The position numbers were made by a program, and so were the translations under genes. Below the pieces are notes generated by a model, which was given only the letters and a program-made list of their open reading frames with translations, ran no database searches and had not been told where the DNA came from. Positions 1,072 through 55,086 of a stretch of DNA of 64,000 bases are shown here, in pieces; positions within the stretch are counted from its first letter, which is position 1; the number at the start of each line of letters is the position of its first letter. Source of the DNA: Salinibacterium sp. ZJ70 (lineage in GTDB: Bacteria > Actinomycetota > Actinomycetes > Actinomycetales > Microbacteriaceae); contig NZ_CP061770.1 of assembly GCF_011751865.2 (NCBI RefSeq), positions 62,001 to 126,000 on the forward strand, written 5' to 3'.

Positions 1072-2127
1072 GTGCTCTCCAGAGAACATCCCCTGACCGA
1101 CGGGCGCACCAGCTCGGCCCCCGTGATCCGTGCGCTGCGCGGCGACCGTCCCGCGCGCACCCCCGTCTGGTTCATGCGCCAGGCTGGGCGTTCGCTGCCC
1201 GAGTACCGGGAGTCGCGCGCCGGTGTCGACATGCTCGACGCGTGCCTCACCCCGGAGCTCGCGGCTGAGATCACCCTGCAGCCGGTGCGGCGTCACGGCG
1301 TGGACGCGGCGATCCTGTTCAGCGACATCGTCATCCCCGTGCTCCTCGCCGGCGTCGACGTGAAGATCGCGCCCGGCCGCGGCCCGGTGCTCGAGGATCC
1401 GATCCGATCGGCATCGGATGTGCTGCGACTGCGCCCGCTCGATCCGGAAGCCCTCGAGCCGATCCGCGAGGCGGTGCGCCTCGTCGTCGCCGAGCTCGGC
1501 GAGACTCCGCTCATCGCCTTCGGAGGTGCGCCCTTCACGCTCGCCTCCTACCTCGTGGAGGGTGGCCCGTCGAAGGACCAGCTGCGAGCTCGCTCCATGA
1601 TGTACGCCGATCCGCATGCATGGGCGTCGCTGCTCAACTGGTGCGCCGACGTGACGGGGGCGTTCATGCGCGCTCAGGTGGAGGCCGGGGCGAGCGCCGC
1701 GCAGCTCTTCGACTCCTGGGTGGGCTCGCTCTCGGTGCGCGACTATCAGCGTCGTGTCGCCCCGCACTCGAAGCGCGCGTTCGATGCGCTCCGCGGCCTC
1801 GATGTGCCGCGCATCCACTTCGGCGTCGGCTCGGGCGAGGTGCTGCACCTGCTGCCGGGCATCGGCGCCGATGCGGTGGGCGTCGACTGGCGGCTCCCCC
1901 TGGACGTCGCCAACGAACGGCTCGGCGGGCGTGTGCCGCTCCAGGGCAACATCGACCCCGCCCTGCTCTTCGCGCCGTGGCGCACGCTGCACGCTCACGT
2001 GGAGGATGTGCTCGATCGTGGACGCGAGGCACCTGCGCATGTCGTGAACCTCGGCCACGGCGTGCCGCCGGAGACCGATCCTGATGTGCTGACCCGCATC
2101 GTGGAGCTCGTGCATGCCCGCGGCTGA
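1072..2127 (+). CDS. hemE: Uroporphyrinogen decarboxylase
   Basis: Decarboxylates the four acetate side chains of uroporphyrinogen III to give coproporphyrinogen III. The 351-residue product has the family signature near the N-terminus (PVWFMRQAGRSLPEYR) and the conserved NLGHGVPPETDPD segment near the C-terminus. The GTG at 1072 is chosen because it leaves a normal N-terminus before the RALRG motif; a later in-frame GTG (1123) would cut into conserved sequence. CAAGAT lies 6 nt upstream and there is no Shine-Dalgarno. It overlaps hemY by 14 nt, and opens the rightward heme cluster. Confidence 0.95.
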   Translation: MLSREHPLTDGRTSSAPVIRALRGDRPARTPVWFMRQAGRSLPEYRESRAGVDMLDACLTPELAAEITLQPVRRHGVDAAILFSDIVIPVLLAGVDVKIAPGRGPVLEDPIRSASDVLRLRPLDPEALEPIREAVRLVVAELGETPLIAFGGAPFTLASYLVEGGPSKDQLRARSMMYADPHAWASLLNWCADVTGAFMRAQVEAGASAAQLFDSWVGSLSVRDYQRRVAPHSKRAFDALRGLDVPRIHFGVGSGEVLHLLPGIGADAVGVDWRLPLDVANERLGGRVPLQGNIDPALLFAPWRTLHAHVEDVLDRGREAPAHVVNLGHGVPPETDPDVLTRIVELVHARG

Positions 2128-3394
2128 GGCGACGCGCCCGGTGATCGTGGTCGGCGGAGGGATCGCCGGTCTCGTCGTCGCGCGCGAGCTCGTGCTGGCG
2201 GGTCGCGAGGTGGTCCTGCTCGAGAAGTCGGATCGGCTGGGCGGCCAGGTCGCGAAGCATTCCGTTGCGGGCATAGAACTCGACGCGGGGGCCGAGGCGT
2301 TCTCGACTCGGGGCACGGCGATCCCCGAGCTGCTCACCTCGCTCGGCCTCGCCGACGATGTCGTGCGCCCGTCGGGCGACTCTGCCTGGGTGCATCGTGC
2401 GCACCGTGGAGCGGTTCCTCTGCCCGCCACGAGCCTGCTGGGCATCCCGGCGGTTCCCCTGGCGGCGGACGTGATCGCCGCCATCGGAATGGGCGGCGCG
2501 CTCCGTGCTCAGATGGATGCGCTCCTTCCGTCGTTCGTGGGCGGGAAGGCGACCTCGCTCGGCGACCTCGTGCGACGCCGGATGGGGCGTGCGGTTCACG
2601 ATGAGCTCGTCGCACCCGTGGTGCGGGGGGTGCACTCGCTCACTCCCGACGAGCTGCCTATCGACCGCGCGCACCCGCGCCTCGCTGCCTCGCTCGTCGC
2701 CGCCGGAAGCCTGGCGCATGCCGTGCGCCGGCTACGCGGCGACGCCCCCGGTGGCACACTCGTGGCGACGCTGCGCGGCGGACTCTTCCGCCTCGCGGAC
2801 GCGCTCGAATCCGAGATGCACCGCTTCGGGGTGGACGTGCGCACGCGTACGGAGGTCGTCGAGCTCGACGCGGAAGGCGTCACCACCGCGACGGGCGAGC
2901 GCATCGAGGGCGAGGTGCTCCTCGCCGCGGCGGGGGGCACGGGTGTGCCGCGCACGCGCGTGCAGATCGCCACTCTCGCGCTCGACGCACCCCAGCTCGC
3001 CTCCGCCCCGCGCGGCACAGGGGTGCTGGTGGGGGCAGGCGTCACGGATGTCGCCGCTCGCGCACTCACGCATGTCACGGCGAAGTGGCCCTGGCTCGCC
3101 GAGAGCACTCCCCTTCAGGTGCTGCGGCTCTCGTATGACGCCGGCATCGAGGTGACTCCCGAGCGCGCGCGAGCCGACGCCGAGGTGCTGCTGGGACAGC
3201 CCATCCCCGCCCCCGTGGACAGCGCGATCGTCGCGTGGGAGCGCGCGGGCCGCCGGATGGACTCGTCACATGCCATTGACGGAATGCATTGCGTAGGGGA
3301 GGCTGAATCCGGGACGGGTCTCGCCGCCGTCGTCGCGCTAGCACGTGAGGTCGGCCGACGAAACCCCCCGGTCCCCGCCGACCCTGACGGGTAG
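2114..3394 (+). CDS. hemY: Coproporphyrinogen III oxidase (HemY/CgoX type)
   Basis: FAD-dependent oxidase of 426 residues. An N-terminal dinucleotide-binding motif VIVVGGGIAGLVVARE (about residues 9-24) and a C-terminal FAD-closing segment (MHCVGEAESGTGLAAVV) place it in the protoporphyrinogen/coproporphyrinogen oxidase family. Because HemQ and HemH lie downstream and no HemN/HemF is present in the window, the physiological substrate is probably coproporphyrinogen III, oxidised to coproporphyrin III, as known for Gram-positive bacteria. The ATG at 2114 lies inside the end of hemE, implying coupled translation. Confidence 0.92.
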   Translation: MPAAEATRPVIVVGGGIAGLVVARELVLAGREVVLLEKSDRLGGQVAKHSVAGIELDAGAEAFSTRGTAIPELLTSLGLADDVVRPSGDSAWVHRAHRGAVPLPATSLLGIPAVPLAADVIAAIGMGGALRAQMDALLPSFVGGKATSLGDLVRRRMGRAVHDELVAPVVRGVHSLTPDELPIDRAHPRLAASLVAAGSLAHAVRRLRGDAPGGTLVATLRGGLFRLADALESEMHRFGVDVRTRTEVVELDAEGVTTATGERIEGEVLLAAAGGTGVPRTRVQIATLALDAPQLASAPRGTGVLVGAGVTDVAARALTHVTAKWPWLAESTPLQVLRLSYDAGIEVTPERARADAEVLLGQPIPAPVDSAIVAWERAGRRMDSSHAIDGMHCVGEAESGTGLAAVVALAREVGRRNPPVPADPDG

Positions 3395-3460
3395 TCGACG
3401 GATAGTCTGGGCGTGGCCCCACATGGCACACCGCGTCATCCGCGGAGAATGGAGCACCCC

Positions 3461-35647: not shown

Positions 35648-35702
35648 GAGGGGTCGCAAATGACAGGTCTCCCGGCGTGTCGCTGGTGATTTGCGACCCC
35701 TC
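35648..35702 (+). repeat. REP-like palindrome, copy A
   Basis: A perfect 14-bp inverted repeat (GAGGGGTCGCAAAT and complement) around a 27-nt loop. Its left half continues GGGTCGCAAATGAC, sharing the core GGGTCG-N-AA-N-TGAC with the two palindromes around the DUF559 gene at 53993-54060 and 55019-55086. It stands alone after the purA terminator. Confidence 0.65.
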
Positions 35703-49988: not shown

Positions 49989-51488
49989 TCAGTTCGTCCG
50001 CGTGTGCGGGCGGCGTGCGGCGAGCAGGCCGAGGATGCAAGCACCTGCCACGAGGGCTGCGAGGCCGATCGCTGCGGGGGTGGATCCGTCGGCGCCGGTC
50101 TCGGCGAGTGCGGCCCCCGGCGTCGCTGCGGGAGTGGCGGTGGGGGCGCTCGTGGGGGTGGGGGCGGGGGCGGGAGCTGCGAAGAGGAATACGTCGATCC
50201 ACTCGTTCTCGTCGCCATCGACGAGGTTGTCTGCCCATGACTCGTAGGCGATGTAGCGGCCGTCGGTGGAGATCGCGGGACCCTCGCTGCTGCTGTTGCC
50301 GGGTGTGCCGTCAGTGTGGCGCGAGATGAGGGTGGTGGTGCTCGTGGCGGTGTCGCTGAGGAATACGTCCCAGGCGGCGTTGGTGTCGCCCGTGACGAGA
50401 GTGCTCGCATACGACTTGTAGGTGATGTAGCGGCCGTCGCCGGAGATGGTGGGGTGCTGGCTCCAGCTGTCGCCTTCGGTGCCGCCTGTGAGGCGGGAGA
50501 CGAGGGTGGTGGTGCTGGTGGCGGTGTCGTGGAGGAATACGTCGGGATAGCCGCCGTCGTCGTCGTCGTCCACGAGGTTGTCTGCCCGTGATTCGTAGGC
50601 GATGTAGAGGCCGTCGGCGGAGATCGCGGGACCGCTGCTGCTGTCGTTGCCTTGGGTGCCGTCAGTGTGACGGGAGATGAGGGTGGTGGTTCCCGTAGTG
50701 GCCTTGTAGAGGAAGATGTCGTGCGCGTCATTGCTGTCGTCATCGACGAGGTTGTCTGCCCATGAATCGTAGGCGATGTAGAGGCCGTCGGCGGAGATCG
50801 CGGGACCGCTGCTGCTGTCGTTGCCCTGGGTGCCGTCGCTGTGGCGGGAGATGAGGGTGGTGGTGCCCGTGCTGGTGTCGAAGAGGAAGATGTCCGCGGA
50901 GCCGTTGCTGTCGTCGGCGACGAGGGTGGTCGCGTACGACTCGTAGGTGACGTAGCGCCCGTCGGCGGAGATCGCGGAGGCGTAGCTGTCCTTGTCGCCT
51001 TGGGTGCCGTCAGTGTGGCGCGAGATGAGGGTGGTGGTGCCCGTGCTGGTGTCGAAGAGGAATACGTCTGCGGAGCCGTTGCTGTCGTCGGCGACGAGGG
51101 TGGTCGCGTACGAGTCGTAGGTGACGTAGCGCCCGTCGGCGGAGATCGCGGGGTCGAAGCTGCCGTAGTTGCCCTGGGTGCCGTCGGTGTGGCGGGAGAT
51201 GAGGGTGGTGGTGCCCGTGCTGGTGTCGAAGAGGAATACGTCTGCGGAGCCGTTGCTGTCGTCGGCGACGAGGGTGGTCGCGCTGGAGTGATAGGCGACG
51301 TAGCGCCCGTCGGCGGAGATCGCAGGGGAGTGGCTGTTCTGGTCGCCTTCGGTGCCGTCGCTCGCGATCGAGACTCGCGTGGTGGTGACTGCGCCGGTCG
51401 CGCTCGCTGAGGCGGCGAGGCCCAGGGTGAGCAGTCCTGCGACTCCGAGAGCGAAAGTGGACACGATGGCGCGACGGGGGGTGAGCAT
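49989..51488 (-). CDS. Seven-bladed propeller surface protein with LAETG signal (paralog)
   Basis: A 499-residue paralog of the preceding protein: signal peptide (ending ASASA), seven blades with a 58-residue step (AIS-type motifs start at 55, 113, 171, 229, 287, 346, 404), a Pro/Thr/Ala linker, LAETG (462-466), hydrophobic helix and basic tail. Blades 1-3 are nearly identical to each other. ATG 51488 is chosen because it gives a good signal peptide and has TAGCAT 7 nt upstream; in-frame sequence before it overlaps purL antisense. Confidence 0.87.
   Translation of the reverse strand: MLTPRRAIVSTFALGVAGLLTLGLAASASATGAVTTTRVSIASDGTEGDQNSHSPAISADGRYVAYHSSATTLVADDSNGSADVFLFDTSTGTTTLISRHTDGTQGNYGSFDPAISADGRYVTYDSYATTLVADDSNGSADVFLFDTSTGTTTLISRHTDGTQGDKDSYASAISADGRYVTYESYATTLVADDSNGSADIFLFDTSTGTTTLISRHSDGTQGNDSSSGPAISADGLYIAYDSWADNLVDDDSNDAHDIFLYKATTGTTTLISRHTDGTQGNDSSSGPAISADGLYIAYESRADNLVDDDDDGGYPDVFLHDTATSTTTLVSRLTGGTEGDSWSQHPTISGDGRYITYKSYASTLVTGDTNAAWDVFLSDTATSTTTLISRHTDGTPGNSSSEGPAISTDGRYIAYESWADNLVDGDENEWIDVFLFAAPAPAPTPTSAPTATPAATPGAALAETGADGSTPAAIGLAALVAGACILGLLAARRPHTRTN
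50805..51326 (-). repeat. Three near-identical 174-bp blade repeats
   Basis: The DNA encoding blades 1-3 of the second propeller gene is repeated almost exactly at a 174-bp step (for example GTTGCTGTCGTCGGCGACGA recurs at 50903, 51077 and 51251). This indicates recent tandem amplification or gene conversion within the gene. Confidence 0.8.
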
Positions 51489-51495
51489 GTGAGGA

Positions 51496-51540
51496 ATGCT
51501 AGCGACCTGCCGCTCCGAGTGCGCTTCCCCCGTATGGGGG
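51496..51540 (-). promoter_or_regulatory. Promoter region of propeller gene 2, with shared box
   Basis: TAGCAT (51496-51501) lies 7 nt before the ATG and GCGCTTCCCCC...GGGGG (51521-51540, plus-strand reading) begins 33 nt upstream, matching the first propeller gene in spacing and sequence. Confidence 0.5.
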
Positions 51541-51555
51541 TGTCCCCGTGCAACA

Positions 51556-51590
51556 GAGGGGGCGCGAGGCCGAAGCCCCACGCCCCCTTC
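51556..51590 (-). terminator. Terminator after purL
   Basis: AGGGGGCG and CGCCCCCT arms with an inner GGC/GCC stem, 15 nt after the purL stop; read leftwards it is followed by CTGTTGC. Confidence 0.65.
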
Positions 51591-51604
51591 AGCAGCAGAT
51601 CGGA

Positions 51605-53896
51605 TCAGGCGAAGCGCGCGCGCAGCGTCTCCGTGAAGGTCTTCGACAGCTCGTCCAGCGACGCTGTGAAGACGTCCTGCACCTCGAGAGCGGGCTCCGA
51701 GTCCGTCACGCCGATGCGGAGGACGGGGTAGCCGCGGCCCTCGCACAGGCGCGTGAACTTCACATCCTCCTCGCGCGGCACCGCGACGAGCACGCGACCC
51801 GTCGACTCCGAGAAGAGCGCCGTCGCGACATCGACGCCGTCGCGCGCGATGAGCTCATCGAGGAACACGCGGGCACCCACGCCGAAGCGCAGCACGCCCT
51901 CGGCGAGAGCGATCGCGAGACCGCCGTCGGAGAGGTCGTGGGCGGCGTTCAGAAGACCCTCGTGCGCGGCGGCCTGAAGAAGCCCGCCGAGGTTCATCTC
52001 GGCCTCGAGGTCGACCTTCGGCGGGCGTCCGCCGAGGTGGTCGTGCACGACGCCGGCCCACGCCGATCCGTCGAGCTCGAGGGCGGTCGTGCCGAGCAGG
52101 TACAGGTTGTCGCCCGCATCCTGCCAGCCCGACGGCACGCGGCGGCCCACGTCGTCGATCGTGCCCATGACGGCGATGACGGGCGTGGGGTGGATCGGCA
52201 CATCGCCCGTCTGGTTGTAGAACGACACGTTGCCGCCCGTCACGGGGATGCCCATCGTGAGGCAGGCGTCCGAGAGGCCCTCGACGGTCTGGCTGAACTG
52301 CCACATGACCTCGGGGTTCTCGGGGCTGCCGAAGTTGAGGCAGTCGGAGACCGCGACGGGCGTCGCACCCGTCACCGAGACGTTGCGGTAGGCCTCCGCG
52401 AGAGCCAGCTGCGCACCCTGGTACGGGTCGAGGTAGCAGTAGCGGCCATTCGCATCCGTCGCGAGCGCGAATCCGAGACCGGAGGTCTCGTCGACACGAA
52501 CCATGCCGCCGTCGTCGGGGTAGCTGAGGGCCGTGTTGCCGAGCACGTACTTGTCGTACTGGCTCGTGATCCAGCTCTTGTCGGCGAGATTCGCAGAGCC
52601 CAGCAGCTGCAGCACCTGCGCCTTGAGCGCGGGACCCTCGGTGGGGCGGGGCAGAGCGGATGCGGTGTCGGCGTTGAGCGCGTCCATCCACGTGGGGTAG
52701 CTGAGCGGACGCTCGTACACCGGACCGTCGATCGCGACCGTGCGCGGGTCGACGTCGACGATCGTCTCGCCCTTCCACTCGATGATGAGGCGGCCCGTGT
52801 CGGTGACCTCGCCGAGCACGCTCGCCTCGACATCCCACTTCTTCGTCACCGCGAGGAAGCCCTCGAGCTTCTCGGGGGCGACGACCGCCATCATGCGCTC
52901 CTGGCTCTCCGACATGAGGATCTCCTCAGCCGTGAGCGACGGGTCGCGCAGCAGCACGTCGTCGAGGGTGATGTGCATGCCGCCGTCGCCGTTGGAGGCG
53001 AGCTCGGAGGTCGCGCACGAGATGCCGGCGGCGCCCAGATCCTGGATGCCTTCGACGAGCTCGTTCTTGTAGAGCTCGAGGCAGCACTCGATGAGCACCT
53101 TCTCCATGAACGGGTCGCCCACCTGCACGGCGGGGCGCTTGCGGCCCGAGCCCTCATCGAACGACTCGGATGCGAGGATCGACGCGCCGCCGATGCCGTC
53201 GCCACCCGTGCGGGCGCCGAACAGCACGACCTTGTTGCCCACACCGCGCGCGTTCGCGAGGTGCAGATCCTCGTGGCGCAGCACGCCCACCGCGAGCGCA
53301 TTGACGAGCGGGTTCGCCTGGTAGATCGGGTCGAACCAGGTCTCGCCGCCGATGTTCGGCAGGCCCAGGCAGTTGCCGTAGAAGCTGATGCCCGAGACCA
53401 CGCCGGGAACGACGCGCGCCGTGTCGGGGTGGTCGATCGCGCCGAAGCGCAGCGCATCCATGACGGCCACGGGGCGCGCACCCATCGAGATGATGTCGCG
53501 CACGATGCCGCCGACGCCCGTCGCCGCACCCTGGAAGGGCTCGACGTAGCTCGGGTGGTTGTGGCTCTCGATCTTGAAGGTGACCGCCCAGCCTTCGCCG
53601 ATGTCGACGACGCCCGCGTTCTCACCCATGCCGACCATGAGGTTCTTCTTCATCTCGGGCGTGACCTTCTGCCCGAACTGGCGCAGCCACACCTTGCTCG
53701 ACTTGTAGGAGCAGTGCTCGCTCCACATGACGGAGTACATGGCGAGCTCGCCGCTCGTGGGGCGACGGCCGAGGATCTCGCGGATCTTCGCGTACTCGTC
53801 GTCCTTCAGCCCGAGGGCGCCGTACGGCTGCTCCTTCTCGGGTGTGGCGGCTGCGTTCTCGACGGTGTCGACGACGTGCGTCGAGGGAGTGCTCAC
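51605..53896 (-). CDS. purL: Phosphoribosylformylglycinamidine synthase, subunit II
   Basis: The 763-residue small-type PurL, which needs PurQ and PurS (both encoded at 56127-57076). Signatures include [38 protein letters not shown] and [11 protein letters not shown]. It makes FGAM from FGAR with ATP and glutamine. GTG 53896 has AAGGAG 8 nt upstream. The purQS genes lie 2.2 kb upstream, separated by the nuclease cassette and two small genes. Confidence 0.96.
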
Positions 53897-53992: not shown

Positions 53993-54060
53993 GCATCGAG
54001 ACGGCGCTTTCGACCCCTCCTGGAGTGAATTCGGGGTCGGAACTGACGTCTCGGCGCGGG
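53993..54060 (+). repeat. REP-like palindrome, copy B
   Basis: Nested arms CGAGACG/CGTCTCG (53997-54003, 54047-54053) and CGACCCC/GGGGTCG (54011-54017, 54033-54039) fold into one long hairpin. It ends 13 nt from the stop of the DUF559-type gene. Ungapped alignment with copy C (55019-55086) gives 50 identities in 68 by eye, with half of the differences in the loop. Confidence 0.75.
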
Positions 54061-54073
54061 TGCGCGGCGCGGC

Positions 54074-54967
54074 TCAGCGAGTGAGCGCGGAGCGGATGCG
54101 CGCGAGCGTCTCCGGGAGGTCGGGCCCGAGTCCGCGGGCGCGCACCCGGATGACGCGGTATCCCGCCTCGGTCGCCCGGTCGAAGCGCCGGATGTCGCGG
54201 TCGTACTGATAGGTCGAGGTGCGGTGCTGATCGCCGTCGTATTCGGCGATCACGCGACGGTCGGGCCAGGCCAGGTCGAAGTATCCGATGTGTCGGCCGC
54301 GTGCATCCCGGATGGCGACGCCGCACTGCGGATCGGGCAGTCCCGCATCCGCGAGCAGCAGCCGCAGCAGCGTCTCGGCCCGCGACTCGACCCCCTCCCG
54401 TACACGCGCGGCCGCGCGGCGGGCGGCGCGCACGTGGCGCCCGGTCGCGGCCTCCATGTGCGCGCGCAGCTCGTCGAGCCCGATGTGGGGGCGGATGTCG
54501 AGCGGGTCGAGCACGCGAGGGTCGAGCACGAGGTGGTCGCCCGCCGCCACGAGATCCTGCTCGCGGAGCACCCCAGCGGCTTCGAGGAACGCGAGCGCGG
54601 GAGGCGACCCGGGAAGCCCGTGCCGGGTGACCGGCTCGGCGCGCGGGCCATCATGCCCGACCATCCCCGCGCGACGCGGGCGCGTCCGCCCGCTCGCCGC
54701 GCTCACGTGCACGGGGTGAGGCGGGTGAGGAAGGGGCGCTCCCCAGAGCGCGAGCGCTGTGACCCCCGAGAAGCGGTCGCCGGGTCGTAGCAGCGGCGCA
54801 TACCCTTCGATCGCGCTCAGGGCGCCGTCGCGTCGCGCGCGGACGCCCCGGAACGGGCGCTCGAGGTCTCTGCCGCGCAGGCGCGAGGCGGAGTGCCCGA
54901 GCGCCAGGGCCTCGGCGACGGTGAACGACACACCGAGCTTCGGCTCGAGAGGTGTGCGGCGCGGCAT
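54074..54967 (-). CDS. AbiEi-like N-terminus fused to DUF559 (Vsr-like) nuclease domain
   Basis: A 297-residue protein. Residues 10-45 (VSFTVAEALALGHSASRLRG..) look like the winged-helix AbiEi-type domain. The C-terminal 100 residues form a DUF559/Vsr-like PD-(D/E)xK domain: E197 (SRAETLLRL), D231 (GYFDLAWPD), E242 (IAEYDGDQH). The family is widespread and often single-copy in actinobacteria, with unproven roles in defence or repair; no AbiEii toxin is near. ATG 54967 is chosen; CATGAT lies 6 nt upstream. REP-like palindromes flank the gene. Confidence 0.8.
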   Translation of the reverse strand: MPRRTPLEPKLGVSFTVAEALALGHSASRLRGRDLERPFRGVRARRDGALSAIEGYAPLLRPGDRFSGVTALALWGAPLPHPPHPVHVSAASGRTRPRRAGMVGHDGPRAEPVTRHGLPGSPPALAFLEAAGVLREQDLVAAGDHLVLDPRVLDPLDIRPHIGLDELRAHMEAATGRHVRAARRAAARVREGVESRAETLLRLLLADAGLPDPQCGVAIRDARGRHIGYFDLAWPDRRVIAEYDGDQHRTSTYQYDRDIRRFDRATEAGYRVIRVRARGLGPDLPETLARIRSALTR

Positions 54968-54972
54968 CCCTC

Positions 54973-54984
54973 GATCATGTGATC
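54973..54984 (+). promoter_or_regulatory. Palindrome GATCA-TG-TGATC over the DUF559 gene start region
   Basis: A 12-bp palindrome 6 nt upstream of the start, overlapping the weak -10 CATGAT. It may be an operator, perhaps bound by the gene product's own winged-helix domain; that is speculation. Confidence 0.4.
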
Positions 54985-55018
54985 CGAGGCCCCGGCGCGC
55001 GCACACTCATCCACAGGG

Positions 55019-55086
55019 GCATCGAGACGTCGATTCCGACCCATCCGAGGGGGGCTATCGGGTCGAAAGTGACGGCTCAGCGGGGG
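55019..55086 (+). repeat. REP-like palindrome, copy C
   Basis: Arms GAGACGTC/GACGGCTC (55024-55031, 55071-55078) and TTCCGACCC/GGGTCGAAA (55034-55042, 55060-55068) nest as in copy B. It lies 51 nt upstream of the DUF559-type gene start and 31 nt before the next gene. Same orientation and length as copy B in the best alignment. Confidence 0.75.

Follow-up and report, generated by a model that had tools for sequence, protein, structure and literature searches.

Palindrome-bracketed nuclease genes in Microbacteriaceae: a probable RAYT/REP-like arrangement built on an AbiEi-like/Vsr-like enzyme

Introduction

In the purine region of Salinibacterium sp. ZJ70 a single nuclease gene stands between two palindromes of similar sequence, and the locus raises the question of whether the protein and the palindromes belong together and what such a pairing would do. 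The window, that is, the whole stretch of DNA that was analysed, is 64,000 nucleotides long (contig NZ_CP061770.1, positions 62,001 to 126,000). A preliminary description of it compared the locus with the REP-associated transposases (RAYTs) and offered as alternatives a compact defence or repair unit and a shared target for some outside enzyme.

As set out in passages of PMC2817692 and PMC8266576, the RAYT (TnpA-REP)/REP systems, or REPtrons, consist of a gene bordered by its cognate palindromes, with further copies outside genes whose presence correlates with that of the gene; RAYT orthologs are less conserved than their neighbours, and the flanking palindromes change along with the gene. Parts of PMC3733652 place REPs downstream of genes and recognize one class, CGTC, for which no transposase is known; a term search of that text for 'Actinobacteri' returned nothing. 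Passages of PMC3710099 name the Vsr-type REase domain MTES_1575 with no mention there of palindromes, and among open-licence PMC papers we found no description of the nuclease/palindrome pairing.

The window locus

The features on which the analysis is built are as follows.

53993..54060, no strand assigned: palindrome 1, 13 nt beyond the stop codon of the nuclease gene; 50/68 identical to palindrome 2
54074..54967, minus strand: nuclease gene, 297 codons plus stop (open reading frame, coding call, Pfam DUF559)
54398..54967, minus strand: residues 1-190, AbiEi-like half, the putative palindrome-reading part
54077..54391, minus strand: residues 193-297, Vsr/EDxHD-like nuclease half
55019..55086, no strand assigned: palindrome 2, 51 nt ahead of the start codon of the nuclease gene
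35648..35702, no strand assigned: dispersed type D palindrome with perfect arms, one of eight in the window genome; its cognate is the paralog L028, elsewhere in the genome

The two 68-nt palindromes are as first described: aligned without gaps they share 50 of 68 positions, the stems being mostly kept and the loops different, and their distances from the gene are those originally given. Elsewhere in the window the runner-up ungapped match to palindrome 1 on the plus strand reaches 38/68; the best on the minus strand reaches 44/68, a figure that includes the element region and so could reflect the palindrome in reverse reading. A search of the window for the arm pattern, at most three mismatches being allowed, gave three matches where 0.03 would be expected by chance: the two elements themselves and the reverse arm of one of them. 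The gene would have 310 codons if it started instead at an in-frame GTG further upstream. The placement of the cassette in the purine region also stands: purL lies on one side, and on the other come a serine-hydrolase-type gene, a DksA/TraR-zinc-finger gene and then purQ, both pur genes being identified from sequence. At 49989-51746 on the minus strand of the window there is, in addition, a long open reading frame with repeated ISADGRYVAY-like units, perhaps encoding a beta-propeller-type surface protein (by eye).

The assignment of the protein to two halves was likewise upheld. Pfam DUF559 scores 22.0 bits, just above the cut-off of 20.6, with DUF559/MTES_1575 as the family of the nuclease half, and a confident structure model resolves into an AbiEi-like half and a Vsr/I-Bth0305I-like nuclease half; the fold comparison was a second-look PDB listing, and families beyond the listed ones may match as well. 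The window protein has no PADLOC hit, so the evidence for the AbiEi-like half comes from the fold match together with profile hits obtained for paralogs. The best E value in a PDB sequence profile search with the window protein was 0.09, which is not significant. The idea of a defence or repair unit found no support: the window bracket contains a single open reading frame, and the protein had no match in plasmid and phage collections. At the window locus no AbiEii-type toxin gene lies next to the nuclease gene.

The closest named matches are proteins of Protaetiibacter sp. (70%) and of a Leifsonia xyli MAG (72%), both Microbacteriaceae. Homologs were found in 9/9 genomes of the genus, in 90/120 sampled genomes of the family and, at E 1e-15, in 69/246 genomes of the phylum, a set that takes in the window genome and one family member. 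The window gene belongs to a large group of AbiEi-like/Vsr-like nuclease genes that diversify fast and whose hosts are probably Microbacteriaceae.

As single-strand DNA hairpins the window palindromes are modest (z -2.2 and -0.68), and the hairpins of two paralogs reach z -12.9 and -8.4. In its own genome the window palindrome is present as two imperfect copies, both flanking the gene, and a high-copy REP identity was rejected on that count.

The purL slot in relatives

The preliminary description looked to relatives for clean empty sites between purL and purS. Seven relatives in the genus yielded purL and the hydrolase gene on a single fetched locus, and in all seven the interval between the two is free of a DUF559 gene; the borders of an empty site could not be recovered since the relatives are too diverged. 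The interval is about 75, 142 and 270 bp long in three relatives and 0.8-1.3 kb, with other open reading frames, in four. One of the three short intervals carries a weak hairpin of other sequence, and the other two carry none at the same threshold. G001 has a 66%-identical relative of the window nuclease near purL; an MscS-like gene (by eye) parts this gene from the purL-side palindrome, and just upstream of it is a palindrome of another sequence. In G036 and G015 the purL slot is occupied by nuclease-family members with other palindromes.

An MscS-like gene (by eye) is seen in or beside the purL-hydrolase interval at L037 (G004), L040 (G007) and L041 (G001), and the spot therefore accepts different inserts. 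At two places in G001 (L139 2883-3025 and L041 9888-9946) a further palindrome type, CGAGAGGGCGC..., is found beside palindromes of the window type.

Bracketing across the nuclease family

We surveyed 120 loci, 30 from a search of the genus (some of them weak or partial) and 90 among the matches listed in a search of the family (60 of these in order of listing), and 117 of these remained after the removal of three duplicates. Strong hairpins (score 15 or more; counted in all 120 loci, duplicates included) fell within 300 bp upstream of the gene in 52 cases and within 200 bp downstream in 57, with 11 elsewhere in the flanks and 6 inside genes. At a score of 10 or more, a flank hairpin is present upstream in 87/117 loci, downstream in 72/117 and on both sides in 58/117, leaving 59/117 without hairpins on both sides at this threshold. 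The window locus is outside the 58, its upstream palindrome being under the threshold.

Of the 58 two-sided loci, 49 have sides that match each other at a score of 18 or more. When sides were swapped between loci, 0-3 of 56-58 matched in 20 trials, and among 80 other genes from the window and one relative, five had two-sided hairpins and none a matching pair. In the 49 matching loci the arms are 86% identical between the sides (1688/1968) and the loops 59% (307/518), with variation from L013, identical throughout (62/62 bases), to loci that keep the arms only. In RAYT/REP systems the two flanking copies are inverted relative to each other; here the best alignment of the two sides is inverted in 28 and direct in 21, an orientation that is poorly defined for near-symmetric palindromes. 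Among 28 loci from outside the family, six have a clear one-sided palindrome of the same form, and none has a persuasive pair on both sides: at L240 the pair scores 22, above the cut-off for a match, with weak hairpins. On the sequences compared, then, nuclease genes bracketed by a matching palindrome pair are a family-wide arrangement.

Palindrome type and protein type

A slot beside deoA (identified by sequence) separates protein from place. In seven genomes of the genus it holds a nuclease gene with palindromes of two quite different types, type A in G000 (the window genome), G004 and G006, and type B in G002, G003, G007 and G008. The second neighbour of the slot is add in G000, G002, G003 and G007 and another gene in G004, G006 and G008, so that each palindrome type is found in either version of the slot. 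Syntenic pairs with less than 45% protein identity have similar palindromes in 2/23 cases, and non-syntenic pairs with 55% or more in 5/5, at scores that just reach the cut-off and with L013 in four of the five; the background is 154/3434 pairs. At the deoA slot, the one slot compared in this way, identity between the nuclease of L020 (type A) and the six others is 41-63%, against 83-87% for deoA and 84-87% for add.

Across these comparisons the palindrome tracks the protein more closely than the chromosomal position. A shared target for an outside enzyme is unlikely because the palindrome changes together with the protein in one slot.

An attempt to locate the recognition domain by covariation was dropped as evidence: palindrome similarity tracked residues 150-195 best (rho 0.28) and then residues 245-297 (0.20), over 331 pairs that are non-independent.

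Dispersed copies and the cognate gene

Patterns for the individual palindrome types were searched one at a time in nine genomes of the genus; the patterns are strict and undercount. Type A is found in 25 copies in the window genome, 15 in G006, 3 in G004, 4 in G005 (where no type A gene was seen) and 0 in five genomes. Type B has 28, 22, 18 and 17 copies in its four carriers, 10 in G001, 5 in G006, 1 in G004 and 0 in two; type D has 21, 8 and 5 in three carriers, 1 in G001 and 0 in five; type E has 5, 3 and 2 in carriers, a single copy in G001, another in G004 and 0 in four, its gene in G002 (L026) looking truncated. The window type is present twice in its own genome, as the flanks of the gene, three times in dispersed form in G001, the genome with the 66%-identical relative, and in none of the other seven genomes. 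Reversed patterns, used as a control, gave zero for every type in all nine genomes.

Since types were assigned from flanking palindromes, flanking copies were left out of the co-occurrence count. Of the 180 copies outside nuclease cassettes, 157 are in genomes with the cognate gene, a proportion reached in 0/200,000 permutations; copies are present in 14/15 carrier cells and in 7/30 others (6/200,000 permutations). These permutations overstate independence because the species are related. With G001, the least complete genome, removed, 154/165 copies are in carriers. The outcome that would have spoken against the preliminary description, palindromes spread at random and not enriched near such genes, was not observed.

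The copies in non-carriers are chiefly type B (the 10 in G001 and the five in G006), and those in G006 mostly share an arm variant of their own (by eye); they may be relics, or the cognate gene may have been missed. For one type from another genus, two carriers have 2 and 3 copies (4/5 being flanks) and 11 other genomes have none. For several members of the family, pattern searches in sequence establish dispersal between genes together with co-occurrence with the cognate gene.

In the window genome the stretch at about 1.22-2.16 Mb of G000:C1, a third of the chromosome that is possibly the terminus side, is free of type A copies; all 25 lie outside it.

Form and position of the palindromes

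The types counted genome-wide are 55-59 nt long; their arms are conserved and their loops for the most part unrelated. The search patterns permitted 11 lengths for types A and D and 17 for type B, and in copies taken from fetched loci the length is nevertheless close to fixed: 56 nt in 35/35 distinct copies of type A, 55 nt in 12/13 of type D and, of 43 copies of type B, 58 nt in 37 and 57 nt in 6. Near-fixed length and kept arms suggest two half-sites read at a fixed spacing.

For position we examined 67 of the sites found, spread over four genomes, with own cassettes excluded and genes called by a home-made caller. Sixty-four are intergenic: 23 between convergent, 35 between tandem and 6 between divergent genes (5, 16 and 8, respectively, for window gaps of 60 bp or more), and dispersed copies are mostly near the 3' ends of genes. 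Three type A palindromes are seen inside called genes, at L182 (G005) 1488-1661 and L177 (G006) 1473-1529. The loop motif CGTGTC/GACACG is present in 13/13 type D, 11/43 type B and 0/35 type A copies (L144-L223), with shuffled-loop means of 0.18 and 0.49.

Signs of movement

One filled/unfilled pair was found. In G003 the L013 palindrome-gene-palindrome cassette is located beyond xthA and ahead of an acyl-CoA dehydrogenase gene (names by eye). The flanks of this site in G002 align to about 60 bp before the first palindrome and 15 bp after the second, and between them G002 has one imperfect solo palindrome, under the hairpin threshold, that resembles the type of its own L014, with 53/71 bases matching (best elsewhere in 1.4 kb, 32).

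Identical or near-identical palindromes also occur as close pairs, at G007 865410/866169 (inverted), G007 806369/808015 and G000 2430088/2431988. The first and last of these surround ordinary genes, at L223 (G007) 1411-2227 and L158 (G000) 1474-3429, with about 0.8 and 1.9 kb respectively between the palindromes, which hints at local copying. Since most copies have loops of their own, plain copy-and-paste is visible in just a few close pairs.

Twelve cross-species pairs of loci have palindromes in one intergenic region, with differing type in seven; chance would give 2.9-5.8 by a crude guess that assumes 500-1000 shared intergenic regions, and the loci had been selected because they hold palindromes. 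That sites are common to species beyond chance is suggestive only. One site, recognized by a common left-hand gene and adjoining sequence, has type A in G006, type B in G003 and type D in G007, and none of the three in G000.

Discussion

We propose, with a probability of roughly two in three, that these are fast-diversifying AbiEi-like/Vsr-like nucleases, each with its own palindromes, that work like RAYT/REP on an unrelated enzyme. The AbiEi-like half would bind the palindrome and read the two conserved arms at their fixed spacing; the Vsr-like half would cut at or near it; repair or strand exchange afterwards would copy or convert palindromes; and the palindrome-gene-palindrome cassette would sometimes be carried to another site. 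The window copy would be a low-copy member, fading or young. Of the original comparison with RAYTs, the part that concerns the gene family is strongly supported by matching flanks, copies linked to the cognate gene, palindrome type that follows the protein and fast divergence; the window palindrome itself was found in its own genome only at the two flanks of the gene.

More tentative, and a little short of an even chance, is the fuller version of this proposal: a second, non-homologous class of REPtron, in which AbiEi-Vsr nucleases would recognise palindromes of fixed length and type-specific arms and spread or convert them genome-wide, cassettes would enter solo palindromes, and rivals of other specificity would replace them in fixed slots and overwrite the old palindrome set.

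The likeness to RAYT/REP comprises the two cognate flanking palindromes (49/58 two-sided loci of 117, and the window pair), the intergenic copies correlated with the cognate gene (the window type being dispersed in G001 and not in G000) and a gene less conserved than its neighbours, as seen at one slot. The enzyme differs: RAYT is an HUH tyrosine transposase, related to IS200/IS605, that processes its palindrome. The repeats, too, are unlike REP in their near-fixed length and variable loops, and REPs usually exceed 100 copies per genome, whereas here the strict patterns, an undercount, find at most 28 of one type. Nor did we see the GTAG (or CGTC) tag beside the REP palindrome: GTAG is beside 2/182 flanks of 12 nt and CGTC beside 15/182, counted without a shuffle control. 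IS200/IS605 elements, in passages of PMC8266576, also have a gene bordered by palindromes; the enzyme is another one, and here slots are often common to species and many palindromes are solo. The predicted catalytic fold is that of Vsr and of the EDxHD homing endonuclease I-Bth0305I; in the present proteins the nuclease is fused to an AbiEi-like half, its gene has palindromes on both sides, and no intron was seen. A homing endonuclease cuts the allele that lacks its cassette and copies its gene there, and on this point the sequences offer the one filled/unfilled pair, with a solo palindrome at the unfilled place. By sequence family the nuclease half is a DUF559/MTES_1575 REase domain. By analogy the system would work like a REPtron; by its enzyme it is not a RAYT.

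The strongest rival, itself unlikely, is that the palindromes serve the host as binding sites, with the protein acting as a DNA-binding factor and the 3'-end palindromes as roadblocks, insulators or chromosome-organising sites; the arms would be held by selection and co-evolve with the protein, with little or no movement. Arms conserved among copies with differing loops, the fixed length and the intergenic position of 64 of the 67 sites would all suit such a role, as would L198/L206, a site pair of the same type in two species with similar loops and a common arm change (by eye). Host-serving sites do not readily account for whole sets that switch type between sister species, for apparent relic sets in some genomes, for a cassette in one genome facing a solo palindrome in a relative, or for close identical pairs, which suggest recent copying.

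Quite improbable is autoregulation of the kind seen in AbiEi antitoxins, in which the palindromes beside the nuclease gene would be its own operators. This reading draws on the AbiEi-like half and on the binding of AbiEi to inverted repeats at its own promoter, described in a passage of PMC7319586, and leaves the downstream copy and the dispersed copies unexplained. The present proteins also differ from AbiEi antitoxins in the fusion to a nuclease, in the lack of a toxin partner within the bracket and in the dispersal of the sites.

Ordinary transcription-terminator or mRNA hairpins with no link to the protein, an idea suggested by the many strong hairpins near 3' ends, can be largely set aside, as the sides match, copies co-occur with the cognate gene and stem mismatches have no clear excess of G.T over A.C (79 vs 59 in gene orientation; 42 vs 42 in a second count). 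An RNA element was rejected on the same mismatch counts, which lack a clear RNA bias, and on the best Rfam hit, far under the gathering score and outside both elements (E 0.76).

Returning to the preferred reading, of nucleases working with their own palindromes in the manner of RAYT/REP, the family looks like an independent construction of a bacterial repeat system that is already known and still puzzling. Why bacteria keep a RAYT gene and scattered REP palindromes together is an old question; if an unrelated enzyme reached the same arrangement, then the arrangement itself would be favoured and would not be a quirk of a single transposase lineage. With several types per genome, slots of differing type in sister species and apparent gene-less relic sets, spread, maintenance and decay become directly testable, and the many natural nuclease/palindrome specificities would help in learning how such proteins choose their DNA.
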